A stretch of DNA of 64,000 nucleotides from Leucosporidium creatinivorum (taxonomy: Eukaryota > Basidiomycota > Microbotryomycetes > Leucosporidiales > Leucosporidiaceae): NCBI GenBank assembly GCA_001600635.1, contig BCKL01000034.1, positions 62,001 through 126,000 on the forward strand, given 5' to 3'. Every line of letters begins with the position of its first letter. Within the stretch, counting starts at the first letter, position 1. The notes beneath the pieces are model-generated. The model was not told the origin of the DNA and searched no databases. It saw only the letters and a list, made by a program, of their open reading frames with translations. Both the position numbers and the translations under genes were made by a program. Below are positions 4,228 through 47,850 of the stretch, piece by piece.

Positions 4228-4523
4228 AATGAAGCTGCGTGGGCAAAAAGTCAATTTCAAGCTCGGCGCAGGCTGCTTCCTTCGAGCACGCTCAATCTGC
4301 TGCTCGCCATCGAGCATTCGCCTCAGGGGGGCTCGGCTACAACGTCAAGCATCCTCCTCTACGACGTAGACCATCCTACTCGAAAAGCACGAGCATGCTG
4401 GAAGCTCCGACTCACCCTTGACTGACTCGACCAGTGATCATAGCGAGGACAAAGAACCAAAACGCGCCGACGCCCACGCCGAGCACACCATACAGTCCAT
4501 TATCGAAACAAGCACCGACTGAT
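4228..4523 (-). pseudogene. Relic copy of exon 3 end, intron 3 and exon 4 start of the FUSC transporter
   Basis: This stretch closely resembles 8745-9043 inside the adjacent transporter gene, on the same strand. The exon part still reads GLYGVLGVGVGAFWFF against GLYGMLGVGVGAFWFF in the full gene. The gtgagtcgg donor, intron landmarks (an agcatgct-type stretch; the block with tgcgccgag) and the acceptor ending cgcag|CTTC are also recognisable. Nothing else of the gene is present on either side: the similarity stops near 4523 and near 4228. It is therefore a partial duplicated block and not a second gene. It sits between the enoyl-CoA hydratase stop and the 3' end of the transporter. Confidence 0.8.
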
Positions 4524-7600: not shown

Positions 7601-9516
7601 GGGGGAGACGGAGGGTGCGCGAGGACGGGTGCGTCCAGTTTCGAGGTCCTCTTCGTCATCGAGGTCCTGTTGGAGAGCGTGTCAGCTCAGATAGAGCTCC
7701 TGGAGGTAGTCCGACTCACGAGGAAGTCGTCCCAGGAGGCGCCAGGCGCAGGCGAGTGGTACTCTTGCTTCCCGACAGCGAGTTCTTTGACAATGTCGCT
7801 AATAGCGAGGTCGAAGCCTGCAGGTGAAGACGTCAGTTTCCGCTCCTTCTCCCGAGATGAAGCGCTCAGACCACTCACCGAGGCGAAGCTTCTTGAACGC
7901 CTTGCCAGTAGCCGTCTCCTCCAATCCACGCTTGATGATCTCGAGGGCGGCCGGCTCAAACTTCTCCATGACGACGAGCGACGAGTAGCTCGTGATGAGA
8001 CCCTGGGCGATTGGTAGGTCAGCTCTAAGGCTTCGGCTGGGCGGAGGCGAGGAGGCTCGCCTGTTGCATCTGCTTAATCTTGGCCACCATGCCCGAGTAG
8101 TCGGCCATGCTCCATCTCGTCCAATTCACTTCGAGGCCCGCGTGAGCCGTCTTGACTTGGAGAAGACCGAAATCGGCGCGGATGGATTGATTGAGCTGGT
8201 CGCGGAGGACGCGCTCTTCGTCGGTGATCTCCATCGAGTAGGTCTTGGCGATGAGGTGGCTGAAGGTGGAGAGGTGCTGTTGGGGCGAGCAAGTCAGGGA
8301 GCATTCGGTGGAGCGAGTTGCTCGACCTTGGAACTCACCTCGAGAGAGAGCACGAGCAGCTCTCGAAGCTCACGCTCCGACGAGACGGGCAGGATGAGGA
8401 TGTTGATGCCGAGTACCAGCGCAAAGCCCCAGCAGTCTGCGATCCAGCTCGGTCAGTCACGCTCGCCGGAAGCTGCCTCGGCGACTCACAGGACTGCAGG
8501 TAGGCTTCGAGGTACGGCGCCGAGAAAGTCCCGGGTCCTCCCAGTAAGATCGAGGTATAGATGCCGCTGAAGGCGACCAGCACGGCCAACAAGCTGAACG
8601 CGAAGTAGCGGAGCGACTGAGCCTTGATGAGGGCGAGGACGTCTGTATGATACTCAAGGTCAGCCGCTGTCGCTTGAAGCATATCTGAGGTCCTCGCTAT
8701 AGCTTGTAGTATATCTGAGGTCACTCACAGACGACGAAGAAGAAGACGAAGCTGCACGGGGAACGACAGTTAGCCAAGTCCGGGCTCGGCGCAGGCCGCC
8801 CCATTCGAGCACGCTCAGTCTGCTGCTCGAGTTCGCGCAGACTGCTACGAAATGTCCAGCATGCTCTGTTGAGGATCGAGCACAACTTCGGGGACGCTGT
8901 ACTAAGCACCGAAGGATGCTGGAAGCGCCGACTCACCCTTGACCGACTCGGCTGGTGATCTTGGCGAGGACGAAGAACCAAAACGCGCCGACGCCCACGC
9001 CGAGCATTCCGTACAGCCCATTGTCGAGGCAAGCTCCGACTGAAAGTCCGGGTTGCCCTGCAATGGAAACGATTACCATCGAAGTGAGGGTGATTGGGAA
9101 CCGAATAAGGGAGTTGAATCCTCGCAAAAAGACGAGGACGAAGACCTGTGGAGCAGTGTTAGCTTATTATGCTGTAGGGGAGTAGGGAGGGGCAGGGAGG
9201 TGGATCCGAAGGAGGAGCAGAGCTGCGAAGGGCGGCTGAACAGCGCGAGCAGCTGGAGCCGCGACGAGCTTACGAGGGTGTAGCAGAGCACGCCTTTGTA
9301 GGGTGGGAGATTGAAAGGTCAGTTTATTCCTCGTATGGCTGCTAGCTCTCGTCTTGGGTGCTGCCCTGCAGCGAAAGCCGATTGGGGGCCCGCCGCGCTC
9401 CCCACGTCCCTTCTTCCCTATGCTACAGCTCATCAAGCATGCAAGGACTAACCTTTGGCGATGCTGATGTACTGACGCCTCGTCAACTGAGGCGTCAGCT
9501 TCTCCTTGAGCGCCAT
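4666..9516 (-). CDS. FUSC/DUF2421-type multi-pass membrane transporter
   Basis: Fungal aromatic-acid-exporter-like protein of the family with an ER-transporter 6TM N-terminal region, a central FUSC-type second 6TM bundle and a C-terminal DUF2421 tail; the substrate is unknown. The start is the ATG at 9516 (MALKEKLTPQLTRRQYISIA). Early exons are 9453-9516, a 20-nt microexon at 9274-9293, then 8937-9145. Membrane segments include VLCYTLVFVLVFL, YGMLGVGVGAFWFFVLA, YFAFSLLAVLVAFSGI and, in the second half, YAFKTACAVTVYAVFLLAP, GGLITIVVAMAPTLGQTF and KAFVALAIALAIAAIFQIFI. A long hydrophilic S/E/R-rich loop (about 7000-7660) separates the two bundles. The tail ends ...TQERDSAA with TAG at 4666-4668. 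The intron at 8003-8060 uses a GC donor. The frame upstream of 9516 is open for a short distance, so a slightly longer N-terminus from an earlier exon cannot be excluded. Confidence 0.85.
8003..8060 (-). other. GC-AG intron in the FUSC transporter
   Basis: Reading the minus strand, the coding text KQMQQ ends in CAG and continues at GLITSYSSLVV. The only donor that keeps both frames is CAG|gcgagc, with branch-like gagctgac and acceptor cccag. Reading through would meet a TAG. The intron is 58 nt, typical of this gene. Confidence 0.75.
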
Positions 9517-19705: not shown

Positions 19706-22700
19706 CAAGCTCAAGCACGTCTCCCTCTCCCTCGTCGCCTTAACTCGGCTCGGCTCACTCCGAATCGCTGTCCCAAGGGCGCCTCGTTCCTCCCTGCTTC
19801 TTCGCCTTCTTCTTTCCCTTGCCTCGGCTGCCCTTCCTCATCTCCTCCTTCAGCTTTTCCATCGCCTCCCTCCTATCGGCGGCGGGGTCGTAGAGCTCGA
19901 TGATGGGGACCTCGAGAATCCGCTTGGACTTGACGGCTCGCTCGGATTGCTTGATGGCTTCCTCGATCTGTTGAAGAGGGAGAGGTAGCACGATGCTTCG
20001 CTGGCGTTGAAGACTCGGAGCTCACCACCTCGTTCCAACCTCGGAACCAGCTCTTCTTGCCCGGAGGGTTCTCCCAGATCAAGTAGGTGGCGGAGCCCCC
20101 CGTGTTCTCGTTACCGGGGACAATAGTACGATTGGTGGAGACAAGATCGTCCATCGTGGCCTCCTCGTCCTCGACCCCCGCGAGCTCGAGAATCGAGGAG
20201 AGCGCCGAGACGACGAGAGGAGGAAGATGGAAGTGGCTGACGAGTCCGTCCTTCTCGCGCTTCTTGCGTTGCTTGGCGGTAAGAGTGACGTCCTCGTGGT
20301 GCTCGTGTTGATGAGCGAGGAGGTCGGGGAGCGAACCGAAGAAGGTGGGTCGAGACTCGGAGCCTGACCGCCAGCTTCTACGGCTGCGACACTTGGGGAG
20401 GTCGCAGACGAGGAAGGATATGGGACGAGCGAGCCAGTCGTCATCGTAGCTGTCGGGTCCGAAGGTGTCGGCATCGCCGTTGAGCTCCTCCTCGGTCATC
20501 TCGGTCGTCGCCTCGAGGATCGTCTTGACGGCTTGAAGGCGAACGTCCAGGCGGTACTCGTCGAGCTCCTCAATGATGGCGTCAAGGCGCTCTCCCCAAG
20601 CTTCATCGTCCTCGGGGTCGGCCTCGTTTGTCTCCCAGAGCTCCTTAACGCTGGCGAGGTGGAGGAAGTCGTTGAAGAGGGGAAGCGAGTGACGACTCTC
20701 GTCGCTGGGCTGGAAGTCGAGAAGCTTCTCGTAGCGGCGCCGGAGGACGTATTGACGAGCGTGCTGGTCGTTGACGGCCTCGAAATGCTCCTGTTGCGCC
20801 TTGAGACGAGGAAGCAGCTTGAGAACCTTGGGCTTAAGCTCCTCCCACTCTGCGAGAGAGTACGGATCAGCTAAGCCGGCAGATGAGAGCATCAACACGT
20901 ACCTTCATCATCGGGCTCTCCACCCTCATTGATCAGCTTGCTCGAGTGCCAGAGAGGAGCGTTGGTGAAGCTGTGGGTCGGGCGAAGTTAACTCGGCGTC
21001 AGCTTGACAGAGGCAAGCAGCTCACTCGTTCTCATCGTAGTCCTCGAACTCGTCAATGATCCTCTGTTGGATGCTGCAGTAAGGGTCAGTCGGGTGTAAG
21101 AGCATGGAAGAAGATGCAGCTCACGCGGCTCGGCGGAAGTGGCCCGCGACGCGCTTCTCTCGGTTCAGGCGGATGCTCTCCTGCCGCGCATTGTCTCTCA
21201 TCACCCTCACAGCGATGAGGACCTTCTTCCCATCCTGCACACTCGAGAGAAGGTCAGCGTAGCTAGCTGCGGCAGAGGCGAGGCAAAGCTCTCGAACAGA
21301 CGAGGACTCACCTCGACGGCCTTCTGCCTCAACTCCTCTCGCTCCTCGACAAACTGCACACGAAGCTTCTTGAGTATCTCCGCCTCGTCGAAAAGCTCTT
21401 CGTCCTCTTCGGCGTCCTCGTCCTCATCGTCGGTATCGTTTTCAGGTTCGGCTCGCCCACTGGGGGCAGTCGACGCCCCGGCGTTCGTCGAGTCCTGGTA
21501 GCCGTACATGGAGGGACGACGAGGCTGGCGGGTACGGGTCGCTCCTCGAGTAGAAGATTGATCCGCCTCACTGTCCTCGAGCAACTCGCGAAGGAGCGCT
21601 TCGTCTTCGCCGATCTCCGACTCCGGATTCTCGGCGACGTCGTTGGCGACCTGCTCAGGCTCGAGCTCGTACAGCTTCGCGCTGAGGATCTCGAGGTCGG
21701 GTAGGAAGCCGTAGGCTAGCCCGTCGATACCGAGTCAGTGGGCGAGCTTGCGACAGCAAGGAGCGACTCACTGGAGAGGAGGGGTAGCCACGTTCGGCGG
21801 GAGAGTCTGTAGAAGCGTCGAGACGAGCTCAACGGCAGAACGAAGAGAGGATTTGGAAGGCTTACGGCCAGTCGAAAGCGCCAGGGAGAAAGTGAGAGGA
21901 TGAAGCTCGGGGTGGTCGGACTTGAACCTCCATCCGAGCTTGACCCAGCTGTAGATCGTCGAGCGTCAGTGGTGAAACGCGCAGGCATCACGAGTTCTGA
22001 CTCACTGCTTCTGTCGGCAAGGGTTGCAGAGAGCTTTGCGGATGGAGAAGTCGGCGAGCTTGGTCTCCTTGCAGCCGCACAACTACGCCGAGTGGCGAGA
22101 TCAGCTCTGCTCGGGGAAACGCGAGGGGAGAAGGTACATACATCGCAGTGCTTGGCGAAGACGAGGTGCGCATACTGAGACTCGGTAAGATCTCCGGCGG
22201 TGAGGTCTGGGAGGCCGACCGAGCGACGCGAGGCCTTCCAAAGCGAAGCCGAACCGGGCGAGATGAGAAGCGAGCGGAAGGCTTTCGAGGTGAGCGAGAG
22301 GGCCAGGAGGTCTCCTGGACCGAGATGGGAGCAGACCTGTGCGGTGAGGGGTCAGTTGCAACTCCACCAATAGCAAGCTGCGAGATCCGCGAGCGCGAGC
22401 GAGAACTCACCTCGGCGAGCATCTCGACGGGCAAAGTCTTAATGAGCTCGAGCTTGCCCTTCTTCTGCTTGGCGTTGTTCTTGCGTGGCTGGCTCTTCTT
22501 CTTGCGCTTCTTGGTAGGCTGCTCGACCTCGCTGCTGCTGTCGAGCTCGTCCTCCACGTCCGACGCGATGGCCTGAGCTGCTCGCTTCTGCTTGCCTTTG
22601 CTCGTCTTGGCCTTGCCTGTAGTCGAGTAGACAGAGTCAGCTGCGACTCTTGATCCCACTGGAACAAGCTCACCCTTGGCCTTCCCTCCGCGCTTCGTCG

Positions 22701-23152
22701 TCACCTGCTCGTCTCCCTCACTCATCTCGACGTCCGACTCGGCGGGCGCTCCATCGTTGGCGTACAGTCGTTTCGTAGCTTTGCGCTGTGGTCTACTGCT
22801 CGTGATGCTCATCGTGAGAGCTGAGGAGCGAGGTGAGTTGGAGAAGCAAGTTGTGGCGGGAGAGGAGCGAGCCGTCTCTCGCGCTCCAGTGAGGGGGAGC
22901 GGACGTCGAGTTGATGCGCTACAAGACGCGTCTCTGCAGTCGTATCAAGTTCTAATCGTCTTTCTTTACCTTTCCGTACCCTGTAGCCTTCCTCTCCGCC
23001 ATTCCACCCCTCGCTGCGTCCACCCCTCGCTGCTCCTTCCCACTCGCGCTCTCGCTCGCGCCGAGCCAGAGTTGTATCGACACAGTGTCTGCTGATTGCT
23101 GGTGAAGGAGGATACAAGGGGAGTGGAATGCTATGCGATAAACGAAAGACTG
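19706..23152. repeat. Inverted segmental duplication, copy A (F-box gene plus flanks)
   Basis: On the minus strand this block matches 44406-47850 on the plus strand. Similarity begins at cagtctttcgtttatcgcat (23152 downward), which corresponds to 44406 upward. It runs through the 5' flank with shared landmarks (cagcagacactgt; gactgcagagacgcgtc; ccgccacaacttgctt) and the whole F-box gene, and ends about 50 bp past the stop at gagacgtgcttgagcttg. Outside these limits the two sites differ. The blocks therefore carry gene and promoter together. Confidence 0.85.
19755..22812 (-). CDS. F-box protein with post-F-box Cys cluster, copy A
   Basis: Likely substrate adaptor of an SCF ubiquitin ligase. 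It starts MSITSSRPQRKATKR with an acidic, lysine-rich nuclear-type N-terminus (KKRKKKSQPRKN). The F-box follows (KTLPVEMLAEVCSHLGPGDL, then LWKASRRSVGLPDL), and then a probable zinc cluster C-D-L-C-G-C...L-C-N-P-C. A glutamate-rich linker precedes a conserved C-terminal region of about 330 residues (LDEYRLDVRLQAVKTILEAT; CDLPKC...H-x-H, perhaps a second zinc site; HFHLPPLVVSALSSI) and a lysine-rich tail ending at 19755. The small exon around 21780-21815 can be read in more than one phase, so the junction before YGFLPDLEIL is unsure. Copy B lies at 44733-47787. Confidence 0.85.
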
Positions 23153-44273: not shown

Positions 44274-44732
44274 AGTAGGTTGTCGAGATGCACGAGCATT
44301 ACAAGTATCTTAAGACGGCTGGACGAGGCGCAGCAGGCTTAAGAGAGCGAACGCCGAGGTTAGAGACGATGCGCGAGACGATGAGTGGTTGTAGCTCTGC
44401 TCATCCAGTCTTTCGTTTATCGCATAGCATTTCACTCCTCTTGTAGCCCCATCCCCAGCAACCAGCAGACACTGTTTCGCATCAACTTGGGCTCGGAGCG
44501 AGCGAAGGAGAGACCGCGAAGCACTAGGGCGGGCTGGAGAGCTAAGGGAAGGGCGCAGGGTACGAGAAGGTAGAGAGCGAGGAGAAGAAGCTGTTGCGAC
44601 TGCAGAGACGCGTCTTGTAGCTCATCACCTCCACGTCCGCTCCTCGCACTTGAGCGCGCGAGAGACGGGCTCGCTCCTCTCCTTCCCGCCACAACTTGCT
44701 TTTCAGACTCACCTCGCTTCTCAGCTCTAACG
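44274..44732 (+). promoter_or_regulatory. Upstream region of F-box copy B, partly duplicated
   Basis: 459 bp between SEC39 and F-box copy B. From 44406 onward it matches the 5' flank of copy A. Left of that, toward SEC39, no similarity to the copy A locus was seen. Two ttgtagc motifs (about 44441 and 44616) lie within it. Confidence 0.6.
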
Positions 44733-47700
44733 ATGAGCAGCACGAGCATTAGACCACAGCGCAAGGCTACGAAACGACAGTACGCCAACGATGGAGCGCC
44801 CGTCGAGTCGGACGTCGAGATGAGTGAGGGAGACGAGCAGGCGACGACGAGGCGAGTAGGGAAGGGCAAGGGTGAACATGCTCCAGCGGGTGGTAGAGCT
44901 CCAACTGATACTAGCTCTATTCGACTACAGGCAAGGGTAAGACGAGCAAGAGCAAGAGCAAGCGAGCAGCTCAGCCCGTCGCGTCAGACGAGGAGGATGA
45001 GCTCGACAGCAGTTCTGAGGTGGAGCAGCCTACCAAGAAGCGCAAGAAGGCGACCAAGATGACACAACGCAAGAAGAACAACAAGCAGAAGAAGGGAAAG
45101 CTCGAGCTCATCAACACGCTGCCTGTCGAGCTCTTCGCCGAGGTGAGCTCTTCGCATCTCGTCTCGCCTGCTCGCGAGGGGGCTGCAGCTGACTTGTCGC
45201 TCGCTTGGTCGCACACAGATCTGCACCTACCTCATGCCGGGAGACCTACTCGCCCTTTCGCGCACCAACAAGGCCTTCCGCTCGTCGCTCACCTCGCCCG
45301 GCTCGCTCTCGCTCTGGAAAGCTTCGCGTCGCTCGGTCGGTCTCCCCGATCTCACTGCAGATGGCATGAGCGAGTACCAGTATGCGCATCTCGTGTTCGG
45401 TACCCGTTGCGATGTAAGGAGACGCTCAAGAATCTCGAGAGCCAAGAAAACTGACCTCCCTCCTCTCGGCGCAGGGCTGTGGCTGCATCGACAGGAAGCT
45501 GGCCGACTTCTCCGTTCGCAAGCGCCTCTGCAACCCCTGTCGTAAGCAGCAGTACGGCTCTTGATTCGCTGTGATCCCTTCCGTCAAGGAGAGCTGACGT
45601 TCTGTGCAGCTGGGTCCTGCTCAGCTCCCAGCTCGAGGACAAAAGCCCCGGCCTTCATCCGTTGGCATCCTCGCTAGCTCTCTACACCGTCTGTGAGTCG
45701 TAGCTTGCTCCGCTTAGCTGCAGTAACTTATTTCCGTCCTGCAGGCACTTACGCATATCGTCACCCTTGGCATTGGGACAGCACTCGCAGTAGCTTCTGC
45801 ATCGCTAATGCATTCTCGACCCCTTCGCTGACCCCCTCTCGTATCTACAACAGAGTACGGCTTTCTCCGACCTCGAGGCGGTGAGCGACAAACTCTGGGA
45901 GCTCGATCCGAACGGCGGCGAGGACGGGCTGTCGGAGGATGAGGCGCTGCTTCGTGAGCTCCTAGACGAGGACGAGATGAGCACCTCCGTCACCACTCGC
46001 ACTCGACAGTCTCGTCGCCCCTCTGTCTATGGACACGATGTCTCAAGCGCCGGCAAGAGTCGACACTCTTCCCAGCTCGGCGAGGAGGATGAGGGAACGG
46101 AGGCCGAGGGTGAGGGTGAGGAAGTCGAGGAGGATCAGGAGTGCGCGAGGAAGAGCGCTTCGTTGAAGGAGTTTATCGAGAAGAGAGAGGCGCTGAGGAA
46201 GGCGTCGGCGCAGGTAAGCTCTCGCCGATTCGGCCGTCACCTCGTCGCCAAGCTCACGCCTTCACGATTTGCAAAAGACGGCAAGTCGGTGTACGACGCG
46301 GTGATCGAGCTGAAGAAGAGGTTGAAAGAAGTGGCGCTCGACACCGCTATTGTGAAGGAGACGGCCGGCGACGAACGCCGAGAGGCGTGAGTTCTCCGTT
46401 CTCCCTCCCGCTTGACGACGCATGCTGACCGCTTCCCACAGCATCCAGAAGAAGATTCTCGAGGAGCTCAAGGACTATGCCGAAGACGAGTGAGTAATCG
46501 CTGCCATGCAGGGCACCCTGCTCACGCTGACGCGACCCCGGCTTAGCTTCGTCCACGCTCGGTTGTGGAGGACCAGCAAGCTCGTCAACGAAGGCGGTTC
46601 TCTCACCGATGAGGGTGAGCATTGGTCACAAATTTCAAACATCGTACTGCATACTGACCCGCTCATCTTTTCGCAGGCTGGGAGGAGATCAAGCCCAAGG
46701 TCGTCAAGCTGCTCGCTCGGATCAAGGCGCAACAGGAACAAGCCGAGCTCGCCAATGACCAGCAGTCGCGTCAAATAACTCTTCGTCCTCGCTACGAGCA
46801 GCTGCTCGACATTCAGCCCACCGACCAGGCCCGTCACTCGCTTCCCCTCTTCGCCGACTTTCTCCACCTCGCCAGCGTCAAGGAGCTGTGGGAGCCGGAT
46901 GAGGCCGACGCCGAGGACGACGAGGTGTGGGAGGAGCATCTTGACTTCATCAACGAGGAGCTCGACGAATACCGCCTCGACGTTCGCCTTCAAGCCGTCA
47001 AGACGATTCTCGAAGCGACGACCGAGATGAGCGAGGAGGACCTCGACGGCGACGTCGACACCCTTGGACCCGACAGCTATAGCCACAAATGGCTCGCTCG
47101 ACCCGTCTCCTACCTCGCCTGCAACCTACCCAGGTGTCGAAGGACTCGTCGCTGGCGCTACACCAACGGGGGTTTGCACCGCGAGCAAGCTCGCCCTGCC
47201 TTCTTCGGCTCCCTCCCGGACCTTCTTGCCCATCAACACAAGGTGCACGCCGAAGTCACCTTCTCTGATACGCAACGCAAGCGGCGCGAGGAAGAAGGCC
47301 TCGTCGGCCACTTCCATCTTCCTCCTCTCGTCGTCTCGGCGCTCTCCTCGGTGATCGAGCTCGCTGGAGACGAAGACGAGGACGCGACGGTAGACGACCT
47401 CGCTGGCGTCACTCACCACAGTGGGGAGACTCGTAGCTGGCGCGTCAAGCAGCAAACGGCGCACCTCGTTTGGGAGAACGCGACGAGCCACAAGCGCAAC
47501 TTTGGTCGCTGGAGCGATTTGGTGAGCTCTTCTCTCTTCTCTCTCTTCGCTGCTCATCGGAGCGAAAAGCTTTCCTGACATTGTCCCCCGACCGCACAAA
47601 ACAGATCGACGAAACCATCAAGCAAGCCGAGAAGGCGGCTAAGAGCAAGCGGATCCTCGAAGTCCCGACCATCGTCCTGCACGACAAGATGCCGCAGATC

Positions 47701-47850
47701 GAGGCGAGGGAGAAGAAAAAGAAGAGAAGGGAGGCCAAGATGAAGAAGCAGAACGCTCGGCGCACTCGGGACGACTATTCGGATTGAGGCCTAGGGGCGC
47801 CGTCGCCGAGCCGAGAGGGTAGGGTCGAAGGAGACGTGCTTGAGCTTGTG
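44406..47850. repeat. Inverted segmental duplication, copy B
   Basis: Plus-strand partner of 19706-23152. It contains about 330 bp of 5' flank, the complete F-box gene and about 60 bp of 3' flank, ending near gagacgtgcttgagcttg (47831-47848). Coding exons are more alike than introns, consistent with two functioning copies separated by about 21 kb. Confidence 0.85.
44733..47787 (+). CDS. F-box protein with post-F-box Cys cluster, copy B
   Basis: Paralogue of the gene at 19755-22812, in opposite orientation. It starts MSSTSIRPQRKATKRQ; the F-box reads NTLPVELFAEICTYLMPGDL and the Cys cluster C-D-G-C-G-C...L-C-N-P-C. The glutamate-rich region precedes SDLEAVSDKLWELDPNGGED and the conserved C-terminal region (LDEYRLDVRLQAVKTILEAT; CNLPRC; FFGSLPDLLAHQHKVHAEVT; HFHLPPLVVSALSSVIELA), ending in a lysine-rich tail and TGA at 47785-47787. 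About 12 exons; the ones near 45740-45880 are the least similar to copy A and their phases are uncertain. It has no clear internal stop, so it is probably a working adaptor with diverged specificity. Confidence 0.82.

Follow-up and report, generated by a model that had tools for sequence, protein, structure and literature searches.

Copies of a multigene family can exchange sequence with one another and are then locally more alike than their age predicts, a process known as concerted evolution. In the F-box gene family of Leucosporidium creatinivorum described here, the close copies of which are named A–E, homogenisation differs from this general picture in being patchy, and the middle exons escape it. 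For the paralogues of other fungi the process has already been described: ectopic gene conversion among regional paralogues was found in a comparison of two species, Aspergillus flavus and A. oryzae (PMC12844118). Copies A–D resemble the Aspergillus genes in being regional fungal paralogues with stretches of up to 100% identity and with frame-breaking lesions, and A–E would be a further example of the same process. The two cases differ in the genes and the fungal group concerned, in the alternating orientation of A–D amid unrelated genes, and in the material compared, which was two species in Aspergillus and is a single genome here. A likeness also exists within the same genome, where an F-box cluster on contig C15 contains an inverted pair of about 85% identity with a 435-bp block at 97.5%; this cluster, however, is a more distant subfamily and is known by pairwise identity.

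The window, i.e., the whole stretch of DNA that was analyzed, has a length of 64 kb (C34:62001-126000) and belongs to a genome of 27.7 Mb in 63 contigs. It contains copies B and C, which had been presented in the preliminary description as an inverted duplication. Three further close copies (A, D, and E) lie outside the window and bring the number in the genome to at least five, A–D on contig C34 and E on contig C11. All were located by genome search:

C34:54168-57414, plus strand: copy A
C34:81706-85152 (window 19706-23152), minus strand: block of copy B
C34:106406-109850 (window 44406-47850), plus strand: block of copy C
C34:147781-151094, minus strand: copy D
C11:95138-98146, plus strand: copy E

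Along C34, A, B, C, and D thus alternate in orientation (+ - + -), and the four lie within about 97 kb. Beyond A–E, protein searches recovered at least 16 weaker places with exon 11 (at least 12 of them on C15) and at least 19 places with the F-box/Cys region (at least 11 on C15). On C15, related F-box genes form another inverted pair, at ~517-521 kb (minus strand) and ~555-557 kb (plus strand). No paper on the A–E family was noticed among the matches listed, which does not in itself prove that there is none. Very probably, B and C are members of an old dispersed F-box family that has been shaped by patchy ectopic gene conversion.

The blocks of B and C are homologous and colinear, lie inverted relative to each other, and agree in their 12 exons and in having kept the introns, as the proposed DNA-level, intron-bearing homology of the pair had implied. 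Inverted pieces of the two blocks (pieces 1 and 2 below) constitute the two strongest non-self matches when the window is compared with itself by blastn:

22156-23152 (B) and 45399-44406 (C), inverted: piece 1, 79% identity
20147-20855 (B) and 47397-46671 (C), inverted: piece 2, 79% identity
19898-19972 (B): piece 3, 82% identity
22004-22095 (B): piece 4, 76% identity

The homology has sharp edges, with a 26-bp exact match on the 5' side and a 19-bp exact match at which it ends on the 3' side; neither terminal inverted repeats nor target-site duplications, which would mark the block as a transposable element, were seen by eye at the ends of the B and C blocks in the alignment. The inverted match of about 3.4 kb reported earlier is therefore confirmed as colinear, inverted, and sharply bounded, but the similarity within it is patchy. 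Nucleotide identity amounts to 73–93% in exons 1–4, 42–71% in exons 5–10, 74% in exon 11, and 57% in exon 12 (70% for all exons), and amino-acid identity in exons 5 and 7–10 to 42–48%. The pooled introns are at chance level, with 323 of 619 positions identical (52%) compared with 49±7% in 60 shuffled intron pairs, although intron 1 (72%) exceeds the shuffled level. The total dS is 0.79 and the dN 0.29. The near-identity of introns and silent sites that would be expected if B and C had arisen by a recent segmental duplication is accordingly absent from this pair.

Copy C is closest to A, with 87% identity across one 3.2-kb alignment (exons 88%, introns 82%) and a total dS of 0.34, as compared to 0.63–0.82 for the other five pairs. 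Quartet topology tests (AU) were applied to A–D in 11 segments, the boundaries of which had been set after the alignment was viewed, and the resulting trees are discordant. The tree AC|BD was best in seven of the segments, AB|CD in three (one in exon 3, two within exon 11), and AD|BC in one (intron 2), the last without decisive support. Eight of the 11 segments reject a grouping of B with C (AU p<0.05); the three that do not are the one comprising the proximal flank, exon 1, and intron 1 (0.08), intron 2, and the start of exon 11. In one exon 11 tract it was AC|BD, the tree prevailing elsewhere, that was rejected (AU 0.002), a conflict of the kind expected under ectopic gene conversion. The remaining candidates (E3, I2, E11d) do not reject AC|BD, nor do two of the three segments in which AB|CD was best. 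The recent birth of B and C as a pair, as had been postulated, does not fit the nearness of A to C, the silent divergence and chance-level introns of the pair, or the rejection of B+C in most segments.

Perfectly identical tracts interrupt the divergence between particular copies:

20558..20694, minus strand: 137 bp in exon 11 of B, perfect match to A (alignment, permutation, trees, simulation)
20249..20325, minus strand: 77 bp in exon 11 of B, perfect match to A (alignment, permutation)
45630..45863, plus strand: 234 bp of C, perfect match to A, beginning in exon 5, spanning introns 5 and 6, and ending in exon 7 (alignment, permutation, simulation)
45300..45361, plus strand: 62 bp in exon 3 of C, perfect match to D (alignment, permutation, simulation)

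The pooled introns of A and B share only 53% identity despite the perfect tracts in exon 11, and A and C are 95–100% identical in introns 3–6 as against 62–87% in introns 1, 2, and 7–11. In a permutation of the longest identical run (5000 shuffles, p floor 0.0002), A-B, A-C, and C-D reached the floor of 0.0002, followed by A-D (0.001), B-C (0.0036, as one of six pairs), and B-D (0.05). Because rates vary along the gene, evolution without exchange was simulated on the fitted tree with local rates (2000 replicates). Runs as long as those observed never arose for A-B, A-C, or C-D (0/2000 each), and arose in 3 of 2000 replicates for A-D and 25 of 2000 for B-C; for B-D, where they arose in 159 of 2000, there is no exchange signal to speak of. 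Exchange is thus well supported for A-B, A-C, and C-D and moderately so for A-D, and direct exchange between B and C is weakly indicated. Gene conversion should leave tracts in particular pairs with an identity far above that of the adjoining sequence; such tracts were found in A-B, A-C, and C-D, and are unconvincing in B-C and B-D. The identical tracts would most simply be products of gene conversion.

Old paralogues that never exchanged sequence but experienced stronger purifying selection on exons 1–3, exon 11, and the proximal flank could also yield conserved segments that coincide across pairs, which to a degree they do, and the small run excess of B-D and B-C as well as dN/dS values of 0.16–0.49 in exon 11 and exons 1–4 would suit such a history. 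It appears improbable, however, in view of pair-specific perfect tracts that extend over two introns in A-C and over third positions in A-B, and of runs in three pairs that were never matched in the local-rate simulations. Similarly, it is improbable that the identical tracts arose in the assembly, through chimeric joining of similar copies: their length of 60–234 bp is that of short reads, but exons mostly 69–88% alike among the copies are usually separated easily, and the assembly comprises 63 contigs for 27.7 Mb.

The inclusion of 5' flanking sequence in the homology, which had been claimed for the pair, is upheld by the end-to-end alignment, in which the similarity is not confined to coding exons between unrelated flanks. 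The flank common to B and C has a length of 340 bp in B and 327 bp in C, and an identity of 71–83%:

22813..23152, minus strand: 5' flank of B, in three layers (alignment)
44406..44732, plus strand: 5' flank of C, matched by B along its full length
22926..22931, minus strand: ACGCGT of B, 119 bp upstream of the ATG
44608..44613, plus strand: ACGCGT of C, 125 bp upstream of the ATG

The proximal layer (22813-22934 in B, 120-odd bp) is common to A–D with 83–91% identity, the middle layer (22935-22975 in B, about 41 bp) is most similar between B and D (90%, as against 71% for B-C), and the distal layer (22976-23152 in B, about 175 bp) is present in B and C only, at 75%. Since A is nearest to C and yet is without the distal layer, this layer must have been either lost from A and D or transferred between B and C, and since it is more alike than the B-C introns, constraint or transfer is needed to explain it. 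For the same reason (71–83% in the flank versus 52% in the introns), the flank of B and C is not a neutral remnant by which a duplication could be dated. The motif ACGCGT, which forms the core of MCB, a cell-cycle element of yeast, and which would be a candidate for such a role here, also occurs in A at -124 and in D at -123 relative to the ATG; its positions in A–D represent four non-independent copies. It was found seven times in the 64-kb window, and in E not within 400 bp. The proximal flank is probably a promoter, kept alike through constraint, conversion, or both. That a single recent inverted duplication made B and C, promoter included, as the preliminary description held, is highly improbable, for the colinear sharp edges and a distal flank restricted to these two copies are outweighed by introns at chance level with a dS of 0.79, by a C that is nearer to A than to B, and by the rejection of B+C in 8 of 11 segments.

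In an old family subject to ectopic conversion, the gene and a short 5' flank would have spread by DNA-level duplication into gaps between unrelated genes; as the introns are retained, retrocopies were not the vehicle. After dispersal, pieces would pass between the copies through ectopic gene conversion. The outcome would be a mosaic: the copies resemble one another at the 5' end, from the proximal flank to exon 3, have diverged strongly in the middle (exons 5–10), and are partly homogenised in exon 11.

The genomic setting bears out the suggestion that the breakpoints avoided coding sequence, for the block edges lie outside the neighboring genes, 76 bp (B) and 132 bp (C) from the stop of the upstream neighbor. 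According to predicted frames, all five copies apparently lie directly 3' of the stop of a co-oriented reading frame. Upstream of C this is SEC39 (PF08314, 3.7e-21), and downstream of C follow a PIN-domain gene and a diphthamide-synthesis gene. The gene upstream of B carries a DTGSSD motif, as in the active site of aspartic proteases. Pfam searches gave no match in 4 of 10 scanned stretches of flanking genes, including those upstream of A and B, the stretch scanned for B being in a frame other than the gene's own. Upstream of D lies a probable amino-acid transporter gene (PF01490, 21.2 bits, under the cut-off of 25.6). Copy D is also flanked by direct repeats of about 720 bp with 90% identity (C34:146711-147419 and C34:151250-151964), which correspond to the 3' end of this transporter gene; a genome search with the 3' stretch recovered those two places and a 75-bp match on C18 only. 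The repeats may be a footprint of the arrival or duplication of D. Further direct repeats were observed beyond D (C34:139360-139747 and C34:144045-144436, 392 bp, 94% identity) and in the window (4385-4522 and 8904-9043, 140 bp, 86% identity).

Both window copies had been regarded as coding-competent, a view that the gene models render doubtful:

19755..22812, minus strand: coding span of B from the ATG to the stop codon, modelled with 12 exons (splice signals and alignment)
44733..47787, plus strand: coding span of C from the ATG to where the family model has its stop, 12 exons (gene model)
21772..21806, minus strand: exon 6 of B, 35 nt (45 in A, 45 in C, 36 in D; gene model)
45854..45870, plus strand: beginning of exon 7 in C, with 2 bp fewer than in A, a frameshift in the model (gene model)

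The 12-exon model gives D an open frame of 803 residues, in which introns 5 and 6 have GC donors, and leaves A open up to a stop within exon 12. Exon 6 of B is not a multiple of three in length and breaks the frame unless it is skipped; among ten open splice solutions for exons 5–7, the single one with conventional donors leaves out exon 6 via a 150-nt intron. In C, stops are met downstream of the 2-bp shift. None of its 21 open splice solutions has conventional donors, but neither has any of the 13 of A, the model of which is open with an odd donor, so that the donor filter does not settle the state of C. As the 2-bp change is located inside the A-C identical run, it is probably younger than the A-C exchange. 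Copy E has two TGA codons inside its match to exon 11. From the DNA alone, the coding competence of B and C is thus neither upheld nor excluded. Positive selection in the middle exons was considered and rejected, dN/dS being below 1 in every computable group (highest value 0.67; several groups are saturated).

The F-box assignment holds for the sister copies A and D, the spliced proteins of which exceed the cut-off of PF12937 (F-box-like; 25.8 and 24.6 bits, respectively, cut-off 24.3). They fall just under that of PF00646 (20.0 and 19.2 versus 20.5) and match no other Pfam model at its cut-off. These two copies were the ones scanned, and B and C align to both through the F-box region. In the translations, the N-terminus is rich in lysine, the F-box is followed by two pairs of Cys, the middle is acidic, and exon 11 contains both Cys and His. 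The product could be a nuclear SCF substrate adaptor. No relatives of the F-box/Cys region of D were found in the PDB by sequence at E<=1, and the structure predicted for exon 11 from the two window copies has a mean pLDDT of 35.5. A genome scan of 150 out of 330 candidates placed at least 128 places above the PF12937 cut-off, a large F-box repertoire; A–E are absent from these places, probably because an intron splits their F-box.

A pair that resembles a datable birth event, promoter included, within the window invites misreading when the nearest relative of C, copy A, sits 4.6 kb past the window edge. Owing to the patchwork history, per-exon divergence is no clock here. Speculatively, and with a low chance of being correct, exchange might act as a selective editor, through which the scattered copies stay alike in the flank, at the F-box end, and in exon 11 and are free to diverge in the middle. 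The products would then be SCF adaptors that share a handle and differ in their targets, with a possible part in genetic conflict or self-recognition. With four copies within about 97 kb, A–D offer a compact case in which ectopic exchange can be measured in an F-box-rich genome.
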